Made by a program: the position numbers and the translations under genes. A DNA stretch of 37,239 bases from a virus: positions 1 to 37,239 of IMG/VR virus record IMGVR_UViG_3300047678_000426; one strand, 5' to 3'. The notes under the pieces were generated by a model, which was not told the DNA's origin, searched no databases, and saw nothing but the letters and a program-made list of their open reading frames with translations. The first letter of the stretch is position 1; each line of letters opens with the position of its first letter. Of this stretch, positions 533 through 11,454 are shown one piece after another.

Positions 533-605
533 CGGCTCGTAGCTCAGATGGCAGAGCGCACCCTCGACACGGGTGAGATCGCTGGTTCGATCCCAGCCGA
601 GCCGA
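533..605 (+). tRNA. tRNA-Val (anticodon GAC), unusual C33
   Basis: A full cloverleaf can be drawn. The acceptor CGGCTCG (533-539) pairs perfectly with CGAGCCG (598-604), followed by U8 A9. The D stem is GCTC/GAGC with a G18G19 loop. The anticodon stem CACCC/GGGTG holds loop TCGACAC (564-570). The variable loop is 5 nt. The T stem GCTGG/CCAGC has loop TTCGATC. The discriminator is A605, with no encoded CCA directly after it. Positions 34-36 read GAC, decoding the GTC and GTT valine codons; GTC is heavily used here. Position 33, almost always U, is C in this reading, so the gene may be atypical or decayed. It lies just upstream of the packaging genes. Confidence 0.8.
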
Positions 606-731
606 CACCACCGGGGGAGGGTCAAAACTCGGAGGCCCCCTCCGCGGACTAAGACCCTCGCCGCTGCGTGTGCCCTGCGCGGTTCCCAGCGTCGATTTGG
701 GCGGGGTTCTGTTTTTTCGGAGGGCCGATCG
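606..731 (+). other. Structured spacer, possible packaging (cos) region
   Basis: There is no gene here. A nested hairpin is visible: outer stem GAGGGTC (617-623) with GACCCTC (653-659), and inside it CGGAGG (630-635) with CCTCCG (639-644) around CCC. Further on, a T6 run sits at about 712-717, just before the HNH ribosome-binding site. Phages with an HNH nuclease beside the terminase are often cos phages that cut near here, so this spacer is the best place in the window for cos. That role is inference; the structure could instead be a terminator or tRNA-processing signal. Confidence 0.35.
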
Positions 732-1091: not shown

Positions 1092-1638
1092 CGAGGAGAT
1101 GCTCGTGCCGGCGCCCGCCACCGAGCCGGACCCGGGCATCGTCATCCCGCCTCCCCCCGATGACGTGGCCGGCCGTGACGAAGCGGTCGAGGCGTGGAAC
1201 AACATCTGGCTCGAGCCGCAGGCGGCGCACTTCTCGCCCGCCGACCGGGTCATCCTGAATCGGTACATCATCGCCTACGACCAGTGGCTCGGAGCGATGG
1301 CGGCGATCTCGCTCGAGCCGCTCGTCGACGGATCCCAAGGTCAGCCGGTGTCAAACCCGCTGATGGGTTGGGCGCAGTCGCGTGAAGCCGTGATGGAGCG
1401 ATGCGAACGGCAGCTCGGCATCGGCCTCAAGAACCGCACCGACCTCGGCATCTCCGTCGGCGTCGCGAAGTTGACCGCCCACCAGATCAACGAGATGACT
1501 CGTGGAGGGAAGAGTGGCGGCGAAGAAACCGCCGGCAAAGCGCCCGGCCGCAAAGCCCGCCGCACGAAAGCCGAGATCGCCGCAGCAGAAGCCGGCACCG
1601 ACGAGGCCTCGATCATCGAAGCCTTCGAAGTCGAGTGA
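1015..1638 (+). CDS. terS: Terminase small subunit (P27-like)
   Basis: This 207-residue protein sits between the HNH nuclease and the large terminase, the normal place for the DNA-recognition subunit. The N-terminal 40 residues are polar and probably disordered. The central part (EAWNNIWLEPQ, then a helix-rich run with RYIIAYDQW and CERQLGIGLKNR) resembles P27-type small subunits, in which helices bind the packaging site. The C-terminus is Lys/Arg/Ala-rich (KAPGRKARRTKAEIAAAEAG) and is encoded by bases that also encode the start of the large subunit. ATG 1015 lies inside the HNH gene, suggesting translational coupling. An ATG-like GTG further in cannot be excluded as the start. Confidence 0.75.
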   Translation: MAAPRKAHTQPRSSTANRVSQRGSGSEEMLVPAPATEPDPGIVIPPPPDDVAGRDEAVEAWNNIWLEPQAAHFSPADRVILNRYIIAYDQWLGAMAAISLEPLVDGSQGQPVSNPLMGWAQSREAVMERCERQLGIGLKNRTDLGISVGVAKLTAHQINEMTRGGKSGGEETAGKAPGRKARRTKAEIAAAEAGTDEASIIEAFEVE

Positions 1639-3241
1639 CGTCGGCTGCCCGACATGGCGCGACTACCTCGTCTGGAACAAGCCGAAGGGGATCTCCCGAG
1701 GCCTCGACGTCTGCAAGTGGATCCAGTTCCACTGCGTCCACACCAACGACCGTTGGACCGGGAAGCCGTTCAAGCTCCTGCCGTGGCAGGTCATGGTCAT
1801 CATGGCCCTGTTCACCGTCGGCGACGACGGCTTCCGGGTCATCCGCTGGGCGCTCATCGGGATCGGCAAGAAGAACGGCAAGACCGAGCTCGCCGCCGCC
1901 CTCGCGCTGTACTTCGCGTTCGGCCCGTCCGGGCCCGACGGTGAACCGGAGCCCTCCGCCCTCGTCGTGTGCGCTGCGGGCAACGACGCCCAGGCCGACC
2001 TCGTCTTCGGTGCGGCATCGACGATGGCGAAGCTGTCGCCGACGCTGTCGCAGATCCTCGAGGCGTGGGAAGCCGAGATCACCTGCCCGACCCTCCCCGG
2101 CTCCAAGGTCGTCCGGGTCGCCGCCGCCGCCAAGAAGTCGAGCTCCACCCTCGATGGCCCGAACATCTACGTCGTCATCTGCGACGAGCTCCACTGCTGG
2201 GAAGGCAACGGCGCCCGCATCGTCTGGAACACGCTCACCAACGGTGGCGTCACCCGGCTCCAGCCGCTCATCCTGCAGATCACGACCGCCGGGTTCGACA
2301 AGGAAACGCTCTGCGGCGAGCAGTACGACTACGGCAAGGCCGTCGCCGCCGGCGAAGTCGACGACCCGGCCTACCTCTTCTGGTGGGTCGAACCGCCCGA
2401 GCTCGCCAACCACCGCGACCCCGCCGTGATCGAAGCGGCCAACCCGTCGTTCGGGCTGGTCATGGGCATCAAGTTCTACCTCGACCAGGTCACGAAGAAG
2501 ACCGAGGCGGTGTTCCGCCGGTACTTCCTCAACCAGTGGACCGAGAGCGAGGAAGGCTGGCTCGAGGCGGGGCAGTGGGAGAACCTGTCGATCGGGCCGT
2601 TCGAGCTCGAGCAGGAGTCCACGTGGGTCGGCACCGACGCCGCGACGAAGCACGACTCGACCGCTCACGTCGCAGCGCAGTGGCACGAGTGCGACCCGCT
2701 GTGCCCAGGGTGGAACGAGGCTGACGACGAGCGGCTCGCCGCCGGCGTCCCGTCCAAGAAGCTGCGGCTCACCTCGGCGATCTGGTCGCGACCGTACGAC
2801 CCACGCACACGCCGGCTCGTCGAGAACTACCGGCTCCCGATCGCCGAGATCGAGAACTGGATCCGGGACCTCTGGCAGGACCTCGGCTCCGAGCTCCTCA
2901 TCGCCGCCGGCTACGACCCCGCCCTGTTCGAACGCTCCGCCCAAGCGCTCGAGAACGAAGGCGTCCCGATGCAGGAGGTCCCGCAGTCGGACCTCCGGAT
3001 GGTGCCGGCGTCGCAGTCGCTGTACCAGATGATCAACGAGGGCCTGATCGAGCACGACGGCGACCCGGTCTTCACCCGCCACCTCCGAGCAGCGGTCGCC
3101 GTGCAGGTGCGCGGCGGCAACGGCGGATGGCGGCTCGCCAAGGGCAAGACCAAGAAGCACATGGACGCAGCGATCGCAGCGGCGATCGCCGTCCACCTGG
3201 CCCTCACCGAAGAGGGAGAAGAGGCGGGAAACGTATGGTGA
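1514..3241 (+). CDS. terL: Terminase large subunit (ATPase and nuclease)
   Basis: The motor protein that pumps DNA into the prohead and cuts it. The ATPase part has a Walker A-like GIGKKNGKT near residue 118, and Walker B ending in CDE near residue 223 (VVICDELH). The nuclease part shows conserved Asp in VGTDAATKHDST near residue 373 and in KKHMDAAIAA near residue 550. I chose GTG 1514 because GGAGGG lies 4 bases upstream; a GTG at 1502 is in frame but lacks an RBS. No in-frame start lies between 1514 and the conserved region, so a 125-base overlap with terS looks real. That segment encodes an odd Lys/Pro/Ala-rich tail of about 40 residues ahead of the usual terminase sequence. Confidence 0.92.
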   Translation: MAAKKPPAKRPAAKPAARKPRSPQQKPAPTRPRSSKPSKSSDVGCPTWRDYLVWNKPKGISRGLDVCKWIQFHCVHTNDRWTGKPFKLLPWQVMVIMALFTVGDDGFRVIRWALIGIGKKNGKTELAAALALYFAFGPSGPDGEPEPSALVVCAAGNDAQADLVFGAASTMAKLSPTLSQILEAWEAEITCPTLPGSKVVRVAAAAKKSSSTLDGPNIYVVICDELHCWEGNGARIVWNTLTNGGVTRLQPLILQITTAGFDKETLCGEQYDYGKAVAAGEVDDPAYLFWWVEPPELANHRDPAVIEAANPSFGLVMGIKFYLDQVTKKTEAVFRRYFLNQWTESEEGWLEAGQWENLSIGPFELEQESTWVGTDAATKHDSTAHVAAQWHECDPLCPGWNEADDERLAAGVPSKKLRLTSAIWSRPYDPRTRRLVENYRLPIAEIENWIRDLWQDLGSELLIAAGYDPALFERSAQALENEGVPMQEVPQSDLRMVPASQSLYQMINEGLIEHDGDPVFTRHLRAAVAVQVRGGNGGWRLAKGKTKKHMDAAIAAAIAVHLALTEEGEEAGNVW

Positions 3242-6921: not shown

Positions 6922-7311
6922 ATGCAGAACCGCGATCTCAACAACACCATCGCGTGCATCACCAGCGTCCCGCCGCTGCTCCGCACCGCCACCATCACCC
7001 CGTCCGTCGGCGTCGACCTCGTCGGCTTCGACCGTGCAGCGGTCGTCGTCGTCGTCGGTGCTCTCACCGATGGCACGCACACCGTGTCGATCGAGGAGTC
7101 CGACTCGTCGGGTTCCGGCTTCGCCGCCGTCGCCGCAGCGCAGCTGTCGGGCACGCCCGGCGCCGTCGCTGCGAACACGGTGTACGAGTACGGCTACCTC
7201 GGCACGAAGCGGTACATCCGCGCCGTCGTCACCGTCACAGGCTCCCCGTCGACGGGCGCCAATATCGCCGCCATCGTCGTCAAGGCCGGCGCCAAGACCC
7301 TCCCGGCCTGA
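6922..7311 (+). CDS. Small virion protein, head decoration-like
   Basis: A 129-residue protein directly after the capsid gene, with an RBS (GAAAGG) before ATG 6922. The pattern VGVDLVGFDRAAVVVVVGALTDG, then SIEESDSSGSGFAAV and YLGTKRYIRAVVTVTG, is one I know from small beta-rich proteins found beside capsid genes in many tailed phages. They are usually annotated as hypothetical or head decoration/stabilisation proteins. No enzyme motif is present. The position between capsid and connector genes supports a virion role. The family resemblance is recalled, not searched. Confidence 0.6.
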   Translation: MQNRDLNNTIACITSVPPLLRTATITPSVGVDLVGFDRAAVVVVVGALTDGTHTVSIEESDSSGSGFAAVAAAQLSGTPGAVAANTVYEYGYLGTKRYIRAVVTVTGSPSTGANIAAIVVKAGAKTLPA

Positions 7312-7351
7312 CCCGCCCGACATATCCCACCGACACCAAGGAGGGCCCGCT

Positions 7352-7795
7352 GTGCGAGTCCAGATGCGAACGAAGATCGGCGGCTTCCGCGACGGGCTCG
7401 AGTGGCCCGATCGCGGCGGCTACCTCGAGGTACCCGACCACGAAGGCGAGGACCTGATCCGAGCCGGCTACGCCAAGGAGGCCGTCGATGAAGCACCCCT
7501 CGAAGACGGCGACGAAGACGCCGCCCCGAACGGCGACGGAACGCCCGCCGAGGACGGCAACGCAGTCGCCACCGAGGACGGCAACGAAGACACCGGGGCA
7601 GCATCGGTGACGGCCGACGGTGCCAACGACGAGCTCCTCGCCCATGACGCCGGCACACCGGCGACCGACGGGGCCTCGTCGACGGGCACCGTGGCGGACG
7701 CACCCGCTGCGCCGGCCAAGCGCGCCCCCGTCAAGAAGGCCGCTGCGAAGAAGGCGCCGGCCAAGAAGGCGCCCGCCAAGCGGACGGCGAGCTGA
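7352..7795 (+). CDS. Acidic protein with a Lys/Ala/Pro tail (147 aa)
   Basis: GTG 7352 is chosen because AAGGAGGG lies 6 bases upstream; an ATG at 7364 is a weaker option. Residues 1-45 look folded (KIGGFRDGLEWPDRGGYLEV and an IRAGYAKEA helix). Such short folded heads occur in proteins beside phage capsid genes. Residues 46-115 are Asp/Glu/Gly/Ala-rich and low in complexity. The last 28 residues are a histone H1-like tail (KKAAAKKAPAKKAPAKR). The tail DNA contains a 21-base block repeated at the end of the next gene. Function unknown; possibly a capsid-associated DNA-binding or linker protein. Confidence 0.7.
   Translation: MRVQMRTKIGGFRDGLEWPDRGGYLEVPDHEGEDLIRAGYAKEAVDEAPLEDGDEDAAPNGDGTPAEDGNAVATEDGNEDTGAASVTADGANDELLAHDAGTPATDGASSTGTVADAPAAPAKRAPVKKAAAKKAPAKKAPAKRTAS
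7748..7768 (+). repeat. Direct repeat, left copy, flanking the methyltransferase
   Basis: This 21-base block in the tail of the Lys/Ala protein matches 8308-8328 at 20 of 21 positions (C versus A at base 10). Both copies sit in the same codon phase (AAG AAG GCG start), reading KKAPAKK here and KKATAKK there. It marks the left edge of a possible methyltransferase cassette. Confidence 0.7.
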
Positions 7796-8337
7796 TGCAC
7801 CTCGAGGCGTACGAGTTCGTCGCCGCTCACGCGACCAGCAATGCCGTCGCCGTGCTCGATGTCGGCGGCCGCAACATCAACGGCACCGTTCGCGGCCTGT
7901 TCCCCGGGGCGACGTCGTACACCGTCGTCGACCTGGTCGAGGCTGACGGCGTCGACGTTGTTGGTGACATCACCGGGCTCGGGCTCGTCGACGTCGCCGA
8001 CGTCGTCGTGTGCGCCGAGGTCCTCGAGCACGCCGCCAACTGGGCCGACATCGTCAGCGCGTGCGCCGCCGCCTGCCGTCCCGGTGGCACCGTGATCATC
8101 ACGGCGGCCGGGCCCGGGCGGGAGCCCCACTCGGCGATCGACGGTGAGGCTCTCCGCAAGGGTGAGCACTACGCCAACATCGAGCCCGACGCCCTGTACG
8201 CGGCGCTCGTCGCGATCGTCGACGACGCCACGGTGGAGACCGCCGGTCACGACGTCCGCGCTGTGGCCAACCTGGCGAAGCCCCGGGTCCGGAAGGCGGC
8301 CGCCACCAAGAAGGCGACGGCCAAGAAGTCGGCGTGA
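7795..8337 (+). CDS. Class I SAM-dependent methyltransferase with a basic tail
   Basis: The 180-residue protein has a Rossmann-type methyltransferase layout. Motif I is VLDVGGRNINGTV near residue 18, an acidic end of strand 2 is YTVVDLVEADG, motif II is ADVVVCAEVLEHAANW, and motif III is CRPGGTVIITAAG. This matches the small-molecule/UbiE-like group (Methyltransf_11/23), not DNA methyltransferases: no DPPY or PCQ motif is seen. The last 20 residues are Lys/Ala-rich (KKATAKKSA). ATG 7795 overlaps the upstream stop and its stop overlaps the connector start. A methyltransferase inside the head module is unusual. A role in modifying virion proteins or their glycans is inference. Confidence 0.8.
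   Translation: MHLEAYEFVAAHATSNAVAVLDVGGRNINGTVRGLFPGATSYTVVDLVEADGVDVVGDITGLGLVDVADVVVCAEVLEHAANWADIVSACAAACRPGGTVIITAAGPGREPHSAIDGEALRKGEHYANIEPDALYAALVAIVDDATVETAGHDVRAVANLAKPRVRKAAATKKATAKKSA
8308..8328 (+). repeat. Direct repeat, right copy, flanking the methyltransferase
   Basis: Second copy of the 21-base block at 7748-7768 (20 of 21 identical), inside the Lys/Ala tail of the methyltransferase gene. It is 560 bases from the first copy and in the same codon phase. Loss of the DNA between them would fuse the tail of the preceding gene to this one, keeping the stop and the GTGA link to the next gene. Confidence 0.7.
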
Positions 8338-8918
8338 CACTCCGGTACGCGCCCGACATCGAGGTCCTGCGCGACTGGCTGAACCTCGGTGACGACTGGC
8401 GCGCCGACGACGCCACGATCGAGACCGTGCTCGCTGCGGTCGAGAGCGAGATCGACAGCCACTGCCACCGCACATTCGTCGCTCCCACCGGCACACCGAC
8501 GCCCCGGATCTTCCGGGCGGCCACGGTGCCCGTCGACGGCGAGTACATCACCTACGTCGACGACGCCGCAGAGTTCGGGGAGCTCGAGACGTCGTCGGAC
8601 CGCACGAACTGGACGACCGTCACCGGATGGTGGGCGGAACTCGACAACGAGCCGGTCGTCACGAAGATCGTGTCGGAGTCGCCGTTCTCGAAGTGGATCC
8701 GCTCCACCTCGGACTGGGGCTACCCCGGCGGGCCCCCCGACAAGGTGATGATGGCGCTGAACGTGCGCGGCGCCGCGCTCCTCGACCGCAAGGACTCACC
8801 CGGTGGTGTCGCCGGCGGCAACGAGTTCGGCACCGTCTACGTCTCCAGGTACGACGACCCCGACTTCGTGCGGCTCCTCGCCGACTTCGTCCGAGGCGAC
8901 CGCGTCGGCATCGGCTGA
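8334..8918 (+). CDS. Head-tail connector (adaptor) protein
   Basis: A 194-residue protein in the first connector position after the head genes, starting at GTG 8334 in a GTGA overlap. The N-terminal region (LRDWLNLGDDWRADDATIETVLAAVESEIDSHCHRTF) is the helical pattern of gp6/gp15-type adaptors, which bind the portal ring and begin with a helix pair that ends at a cysteine or His-rich turn. The middle is beta-rich and the C-terminal part (KVMMALNVRGAALLDRKDSP) is another helix typical of the family. Good confidence on role, moderate on subfamily. Confidence 0.72.
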   Translation: MTLRYAPDIEVLRDWLNLGDDWRADDATIETVLAAVESEIDSHCHRTFVAPTGTPTPRIFRAATVPVDGEYITYVDDAAEFGELETSSDRTNWTTVTGWWAELDNEPVVTKIVSESPFSKWIRSTSDWGYPGGPPDKVMMALNVRGAALLDRKDSPGGVAGGNEFGTVYVSRYDDPDFVRLLADFVRGDRVGIG

Positions 8919-9307: not shown

Positions 9308-9942
9308 GCACGATCACGGACCCCGCCGTGCTCGCCGACAAGATCCGCCGGGCCGCCACCGCGATGGAGGCAATCCAAGCCATCACAGTGAAGGAGATCG
9401 CCCAGGCGGGCAAGGACGCGATCCAGCCGAAGATCAACACTGCGACCGGTGGGAACCGGATGCTGTCAGGCACGCAGCGCACGAAGACGAACCGCAAGGG
9501 CGTCACGAAATCCACCCGGGAGAAGACGATCTCGGTGTCGTACCGGATCCGTGACGGCGTTGCGGGGCCTACCGCTCTGTTGAGAGCGACCGGTCCGCTG
9601 CAGCTCGTCGAGAACGACGTCAAGCGCCACGTGGTCGTGTCGTCGTTCGCCCGGGCGGCTGGCTACGAGACGACGATCCTGACCGGCAAGAACGCCGGGA
9701 AGACCCGGGCCGGGCGCAACACCAGAGACGCCCGCATTGCTTCGGTGCTCACCGGCGCCGGCACATCCGGCACACGACGAGCGGTCCTCAATTTCGGCGA
9801 CGGCACCTACCGGCGGTGGACCACGTCGCACTCAACAGGCCGACACCCGTGGAAGCGAGGCGTCGATGAGATGGGACCGAACGTGCTCGACATCCACGCC
9901 CGCAACCAGCGCAAGGCCCTCCTGTCGGTGTTCGACGCATGA
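9304..9942 (+). CDS. HK97 gp10-like head-tail joining protein
   Basis: A basic 212-residue protein starting at ATG 9304 (ATGA overlap) between the terminator-like protein and the glycosyltransferase. The N-terminal helix (AVLADKIRRAATAMEAIQAITVKEIAQAGKDAIQP) and the very basic middle (RTKTNRKGVTKSTREKT) fit the HK97 gp10 group of joining and tail-completion proteins, whose molecular job is poorly defined. The segment GKNAGKTRAGRNTRDARIASVL looks flexible. It ends in TGA shared with the next ATG. Moderate confidence, based on both position and composition. Confidence 0.5.
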   Translation: MSTITDPAVLADKIRRAATAMEAIQAITVKEIAQAGKDAIQPKINTATGGNRMLSGTQRTKTNRKGVTKSTREKTISVSYRIRDGVAGPTALLRATGPLQLVENDVKRHVVVSSFARAAGYETTILTGKNAGKTRAGRNTRDARIASVLTGAGTSGTRRAVLNFGDGTYRRWTTSHSTGRHPWKRGVDEMGPNVLDIHARNQRKALLSVFDA

Positions 9943-10985
9943 GGGTCATGGTCGTCCACCCGGGCCATCACTTCTCCACCGCCGACGTGTACCGAGGGTG
10001 GGTGCGAGGCCTCCAGGCGAACGGTGTGAAGACGTGCGAGTGGGACACGGCGTCGAGGATCCTGTTCTACGAGAACGCCCACCTCCAGGCCGAGGACGGG
10101 GAGTTCTACAAGCCGTACGACCTCAGCGACGTTGCCCGGATCCTCGCCAACGGGATCCACGCAGCGTGCTACCAGTTCGTGCCGGACGTCGTGCTGGTCA
10201 TCTCTGCCCGGTACATCCCCGACTACACCTACGACATCATCCGCCAGCGCGGCGCCCGGGTCGTCGTGCTGCACACCGAGTCGCCGTATGAGGACGATGA
10301 GCAGCAGCTCATCGCCGACCACGTCGACCTCAACCTGATCAACGACCCGACGAACCTCGAGGCGTGGCGCCAGATCGGCCCGACCGAGTACGTGCCGCAC
10401 GCGTACGACCCGACGGTGCACCGACCGGCGCCGCACCGGCTCGACCTGTTGGACTTCGTGTGGATCGGCACCGCCGGCAACACGTTCCCGTCGAGGACGG
10501 CGTTCCTCGAGCAGGTCGACTGGGACGGCGTCAACGTCGGCCTCGGTGGGCTCTGGCAGGGCACCCGCGAGAGCTCGCCGCTCCTCAAGTACGTGATGCC
10601 CGGTCTTGGCGAGTCGGTCTACAACGACACCACCACGGCGCTGTACCAGCACTCAAGGATGACCGCGAACCTGTACCGCTCCGAGGCGAACAGCGCCGAG
10701 CTCGTCGGCGGGTGGGCGATGGGCCCACGCGAGCTCGAGGCGGCCGCCACCGGGTGCTTCCTCGCCCGCCACTCCCCGGCCGACCACGGCGGCGAAGGCG
10801 ACCAGATCCTGCCGATGCTCCCACAGTTCACCGAACCCGGCGAGCTCGGCGAGATCATTCGCCACTACCTCGCCCGCCCCGACAGCCGAACCCGCATCGC
10901 CACCGAGGCCCGTGCGGCGATCGCGGACCGCACCTTCGAACACCACGCCGCCCAGCTGCTGCAGCGCCTCGAGCGCGCCGCGTAG
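9939..10985 (+). CDS. Glycosyltransferase, CgeB-like (GT-B fold)
   Basis: The 348-residue product shows a GT-B type two-domain layout. The N-terminal Rossmann half opens with MVVHPGHHFSTADVYRGWV and contains VVVLHTESPYEDDEQ and LNLINDPTNLEAW. The C-terminal half has DFVWIGTAGNTFPSRTAFLE near 172 and a donor-site-like region GPRELEAAATGCFLARH with an acidic residue near 267. This matches the CgeB/group 1 glycosyltransferases carried by some actinophages. It is translated from an ATGA overlap inside the structural operon, just before the major tail protein. Phage glycosyltransferases in this position are known to sugar-coat capsid or tail proteins; that target is inference here. Confidence 0.82.
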   Translation: MRVMVVHPGHHFSTADVYRGWVRGLQANGVKTCEWDTASRILFYENAHLQAEDGEFYKPYDLSDVARILANGIHAACYQFVPDVVLVISARYIPDYTYDIIRQRGARVVVLHTESPYEDDEQQLIADHVDLNLINDPTNLEAWRQIGPTEYVPHAYDPTVHRPAPHRLDLLDFVWIGTAGNTFPSRTAFLEQVDWDGVNVGLGGLWQGTRESSPLLKYVMPGLGESVYNDTTTALYQHSRMTANLYRSEANSAELVGGWAMGPRELEAAATGCFLARHSPADHGGEGDQILPMLPQFTEPGELGEIIRHYLARPDSRTRIATEARAAIADRTFEHHAAQLLQRLERAA

Positions 10986-11037: not shown

Positions 11038-11454
11038 ATGGCAACCGCACAGCACGGCCGGAACGCACTGTTCTACGCCGACGTCACCCCGACCGCCGAC
11101 GGCTCGCTGTCGAAGATCCCGATGCTGGTCGACTGGTCGATCGACAAGGAGACCGACGACGTCGAGACGACCCACACCGAGTCGTCCAACAAGGAATACG
11201 TGTCGGGCTTCGGCAACTTCAACGGCACCCTCAACTTCAACGACGACAAGGACACGGACTACATCGACATCCTGTCCGACGGGCTGCCCCGCAACGGCCT
11301 CCTCTACCGCAACCGCGCCGCCGGCGTCGGGAAGCGCAAGTACGACCACGGCCCCCTGATCTTCGCGATGTCCGCCGCCGGCGGCGTGTCCGCCAAGGTC
11401 GCCGGATCGCTCAAGTTCAAGGCCGCCGGCTCCGTCACCCACGGCTACGCCTGA
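11038..11454 (+). CDS. Major tail tube protein
   Basis: A 138-residue protein with GAGGAG before ATG 11038. The pattern LVDWSIDKETDDVETTHTES, KEYVSGFGNFNGTLNFNDDKD and, at the end, SLKFKAAGSVTHGYA is that of a siphophage tube subunit, with beta strands of the tube fold and a Gly-rich turn. It follows the connector genes and precedes the frameshifted chaperones and tape measure, as tube genes do. The protein is short but within the family range. It is the likeliest target of the neighbouring glycosyltransferase. Confidence 0.85.
   Translation: MATAQHGRNALFYADVTPTADGSLSKIPMLVDWSIDKETDDVETTHTESSNKEYVSGFGNFNGTLNFNDDKDTDYIDILSDGLPRNGLLYRNRAAGVGKRKYDHGPLIFAMSAAGGVSAKVAGSLKFKAAGSVTHGYA

Follow-up and report, generated by a model that had tools for sequence, protein, structure and literature searches.

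The window, IMG/VR virus record IMGVR_UViG_3300047678_000426, positions 1 to 37,239 (37,239 nucleotides, the whole stretch of DNA analysed), carries an optional methyltransferase gene in its head-tail operon. We put at about two in three the probability that the enzyme methylates a sugar on the virion, that its gene was gained by mosaic exchange, and that its Lys/Ala tail resembles that of the upstream protein by convergence. Phage glycosyltransferases, here that of 9939-10985, would attach sugar to capsid or tail proteins, and the methyltransferase would then cap or modify the virion glycan by methylating the sugar. Mosaic exchange at gene boundaries, the usual route in phages, would have brought the gene to its place ahead of the connector, rather than recombination between Lys/Ala tails; the overlap of start with stop codons is in keeping with exchange of that kind. 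Against this reading, the fold matches of the enzyme include enzymes that do not act on sugars, and mosaicism leaves its Lys/Ala tail unexplained.

Table 1. Features of the methyltransferase locus and its surroundings in the window.
Feature	Position	Strand	Remarks
DUF7302-like small gene, 147 aa	7352..7795	+	Weak DUF7302 and phrog_2616 matches; follows the capsid and decoration genes
Left 21-base block, AAGAAGGCGCCGGCCAAGAAG	7748..7768	+	KKAPAKK; within the 15-base periodic Lys/Ala array of the DUF7302-like gene
Class I SAM-dependent methyltransferase, 180 aa	7795..8337	+	Pfam Methyltransf_11, phrog_32762, AlphaFold model, PDB fold matches
Right 21-base block, AAGAAGGCGACGGCCAAGAAG	8308..8328	+	KKATAKK; in the methyltransferase C-terminal tail
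Head-tail connector	8334..8918	+	phrog_5938, E 9.7e-8; GTGA overlap of its start with the end of the methyltransferase gene
Glycosyltransferase (Glyco_trans_1_2), proposed partner of the methyltransferase	9939..10985	+	PF13524 above cut-off; homologues near family methyltransferases
Major tail protein, possible glycan acceptor	11038..11454	+	phrog_10528, E 9.8e-6; directly after the glycosyltransferase

The methyltransferase and its family

The product of the gene is a class I SAM-dependent methyltransferase, with a seven-stranded Rossmann-like fold and a Pfam Methyltransf_11 score of 27.9 bits against a cut-off of 21.2; its best PHROG match is phrog_32762 (E 4.3e-13). In the AlphaFold model (pLDDT 95) the fold takes up residues 1-163, with the Lys/Ala tail after it. 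Class I methyltransferases of many kinds align to these residues, UbiG, Coq5, RebM, NodS and KedS8 among them, and many PDB methyltransferase matches have Z 15-17. Such a fold does not by itself give the substrate, and a PDB sequence search returned only general small-molecule methyltransferases. The UbiG equivalog (TIGR01983) was rejected at 26.6 bits against a curated cut-off of 102.95. An anti-phage defence role was also considered, and the PADLOC models gave no match at E 0.01 for either the methyltransferase or the glycosyltransferase.

The enzyme is one member of a large family of class I SAM methyltransferases in phages, UbiG-like in kind. This family, defined in the present analysis by a REPHSAIDG motif, takes in the window protein, and G24, R26, N29, G30, D46, E75, E78, H79, T103 and R109 are invariant across the relatives. 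A scan with the methyltransferase profile located at least 404 viral loci. Elsewhere in the record, a tRNA-Val (gac) lies near the left end (window 533-606).

Two Lys/Ala tails and a 21-base match

The preliminary description had taken the two 21-base blocks as the joint of a gain-and-loss cassette, and what it reported of the DNA was confirmed. The blocks agree at 20 of 21 positions, both begin on a codon boundary in the same phase, and both code for Lys/Ala tails, the left near the end of the DUF7302-like protein and the right near that of the methyltransferase. When they are joined in silico, 560 bp are lost, an upstream protein of 141 aa ending in KKAPAKKSA is left, and the GTGA overlap with the connector is retained. 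The left block is only the best of several registers, because the motif sits in the 15-base periodic array of the upstream gene's tail.

As evidence the 20/21 match is nevertheless weak. The phage genome writes Lys as AAG 96% of the time and Ala mostly as GCC or GCG, and back-translation with the amino acids fixed and the codon usage of the window gave at least 20/21 in 7% of trials and at least 19/21 in 42%. This null, which keeps the amino acids fixed, is the right one; a dinucleotide shuffle, under which zero matches are expected, ignores the Lys/Ala composition. Among twelve genes of the window compared in phase, of which the tail gene was read in the wrong frame and is to be disregarded, the best 21-base matches between other gene pairs reached 19/21 four times; three of these involved the methyltransferase gene, paired with the capsid, the protease and the connector. 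The exact 21-mer, in either form, was found on 58 viral contigs, and in 28 of its 62 occurrences the Lys/Ala frame stops within the next 30 codons, which makes the 21-mer there a C-terminal tail. The match thus looks like two low-complexity Lys/Ala tails written in strongly biased, GC-rich codons. Short in-phase repeats in GC-rich phage genomes invite a reading as joints, and the result sets this right, since in such genomes the DNA of Lys/Ala tails converges. The large terminase reading frame (window 1502-3241) also opens with a Lys/Pro/Ala-rich low-complexity basic segment (AAKKPPAKRPAAKPAARKP), and its true start may be further in.

The two tails differ in how far they are shared with relatives. 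The DUF7302-like protein has a variable linker and a Lys/Ala C-terminal tail, and among 21 further complete genes of its kind with no adjoining enzyme, near copies included and a few on contigs that end soon after the gene, 15 have at least five Lys or Arg in the last 30 residues. The basic tail is therefore a feature of the upstream gene family, not tied to the enzyme. The methyltransferase of the window, by contrast, is alone among the 98 family sequences compared in having a Lys/Ala repeat tail: none of the 97 others, near copies included, has one, although L123 has a short basic end. This singularity, together with the likeness of the aligned residues KAAA(T)KKA(P/T)AKK in both tails, would suit a single copying of the upstream tail into the enzyme gene in this lineage, by duplication or gene conversion, with the repeats serving as no cassette joint. 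Outside the block, however, the KAAA common to both tails is written with the Ala codons GCC GCT GCG in one and GCG GCC GCC in the other; all three synonymous sites differ, which counts against a recent copy, and codon bias can attain the 21-base tract at the simulated rate given above. We consider such a copy unlikely. Less probable still is the combined suggestion that the tail is a working part, common by design to the methyltransferase and the DUF7302-like protein, that brings both to one assembly site on the growing virion, or else a short-tract transfer from the upstream gene.

Presence and absence among relatives

Locus relatives, gathered by capsid searches at 46-63% identity, include phages both with and without the methyltransferase, the comparison that the preliminary description had called for, and most are without it. 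In seven of them (L005, L151, L154, L156, L157, L159 and L160) what comes straight after the DUF7302-like gene is no methyltransferase but another gene, mostly connector-like. In L155, whose capsid is 61% identical, the site is taken by a homologous methyltransferase (about 40% identity), with a connector after it. Neither this enzyme nor the L155 DUF7302-like protein has a Lys/Ala tail. The latter (L155:3211-3582) ends instead in a SAP/Rho_N-like domain (PF02037, just under cut-off) that replaces it. On whether one insertion is shared by the window and L155, a tree that kept their methyltransferases together was not rejected (p-AU 0.536); with SH-aLRT support of only 88, the enzyme of the window groups among mostly connector-adjacent copies. 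A search of viral contigs with the connector protein found no close relatives, and the 14 loci found with the capsid profile in genome contigs all lack both the methyltransferase and the glycosyltransferase.

The proposed gain-and-loss cassette accordingly divides into two parts. That the gene is optional held, as did its description as a moron in the sense of being present at the site in some relatives and missing in others. The Lys/Ala repeats as the joint were not supported. If recombination between the blocks inserted or removed the methyltransferase, the in-phase 20/21 match, the coding-neutral product of the join and the presence or absence of the enzyme among relatives would all be accounted for. 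Yet L155 has the enzyme at the same site without the repeats, while L005, L151 and L154 carry the basic tail but lack the enzyme. The methyltransferase is spanned by no direct repeat of at least 16 nt at L155, L111, L135, L077, L078 or L142, the six other loci compared in which it precedes the connector. To this are added the three differing synonymous sites beside the block. The tails of relatives that carry the gene diverge, and the 21-mer recurs widely among Lys/Ala tails of no relation; the two outcomes that the preliminary description had itself set against its proposal are thus largely borne out. Recombination at these blocks is, in our judgement, highly improbable. In the distant relative L007, a different gene of 284 aa (L007:484-1338), glycosyltransferase-like by eye, lies between the capsid and connector genes, and extra genes may therefore commonly settle in the capsid-connector gap.

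Glycosyltransferase neighbours and known systems

The case for a sugar substrate is built on the company that the enzyme keeps. Besides the glycosyltransferase of the window itself, a glycosyltransferase homologue was present in the fetched flanks of 54 of 68 non-redundant methyltransferase loci, against 0 of the 58 contigs with the 21-mer, a convenience set unmatched for gene region or length. Immediately upstream, a phage glycosyltransferase profile was matched by neighbours at 28 of 84 family loci and PF00535 family-2 glycosyltransferases at 27 of 84; downstream, the head-tail adaptor phrog_442 was found in 25 of 77 and phrog_5938 in 8 of 77. In L077, L112, L130, L137 and L148 a glycosyltransferase of the window type lies 1.5-2.1 kb downstream of the methyltransferase, an arrangement that the window shares. 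In L155 no glycosyltransferase is seen, though the contig stops a short way on. Homologues of the window glycosyltransferase are widespread in viral contigs, with at least 581 confirmed among at least 599 candidates. Among loci of this type with enough upstream sequence, only 13 of 54 have a methyltransferase within 4 kb upstream. The two genes are therefore not an obligate pair, and the glycosyltransferase is the commoner part, the methyltransferase an optional addition.

The same neighbourhoods could arise if both genes merely shared a preference for insertion into late operons, with the enzyme acting on another substrate, for example a small molecule or a protein or nucleic acid of host or phage. 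The fold, common to many unrelated methyltransferases, and the 14 of 68 loci with no glycosyltransferase in their flanks are compatible with this. It is unlikely, given that family-2 glycosyltransferases frequently adjoin the methyltransferases directly upstream and that sugar epimerases adjoin them too. On the preferred reading, methylation of a virion sugar, the recurrence of this widespread phage family at the head-tail junction beside glycosyltransferases predicts virion glycan methylation in many uncultivated phages.

Similar gene pairings are on record. A passage in PMC11600133, citing Freeman 2023, says of the cluster O mycobacteriophages that an O-methyltransferase and three glycosyltransferases modify the capsid and tail tube proteins, and a glycosyltransferase and methyltransferase of a Rhodococcus phage were likewise read as virion glycosylation (PMC13313380). 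The likeness of the window to these actinobacteriophage systems, as far as that passage and the Rhodococcus phage paper describe them, is the pairing of a phage methyltransferase with phage glycosyltransferases. Unlike theirs, the methyltransferase of the window has the DUF7302-like gene on one side and the connector on the other, and lies about 1.6 kb from the glycosyltransferase. The SAM-dependent methyltransferase of the Streptomyces phages Zuko and KimJongPhill is homologous to it by tblastn (36-37% identity), and in Zuko stands between two annotated glycosyltransferases. In these phages, however, the gene lies towards the right-hand end of a genome of 82 kb, outside the head-tail operon, and has no Lys/Ala tail. 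The match to the SAM-dependent methyltransferases of phrog_32762 spans window residues 16-114, and the Lys/Ala tail falls outside it. As with phage morons, the gene is an optional one between conserved head genes; unlike them, it is translationally coupled to its operon by TGATG and GTGA overlaps. A scan of 7200-8500 that covered only sigma-70 consensus sites and T-run terminators found no promoter- or terminator-like site. Set beside these systems, the methyltransferase of the window is a largely ordinary case.
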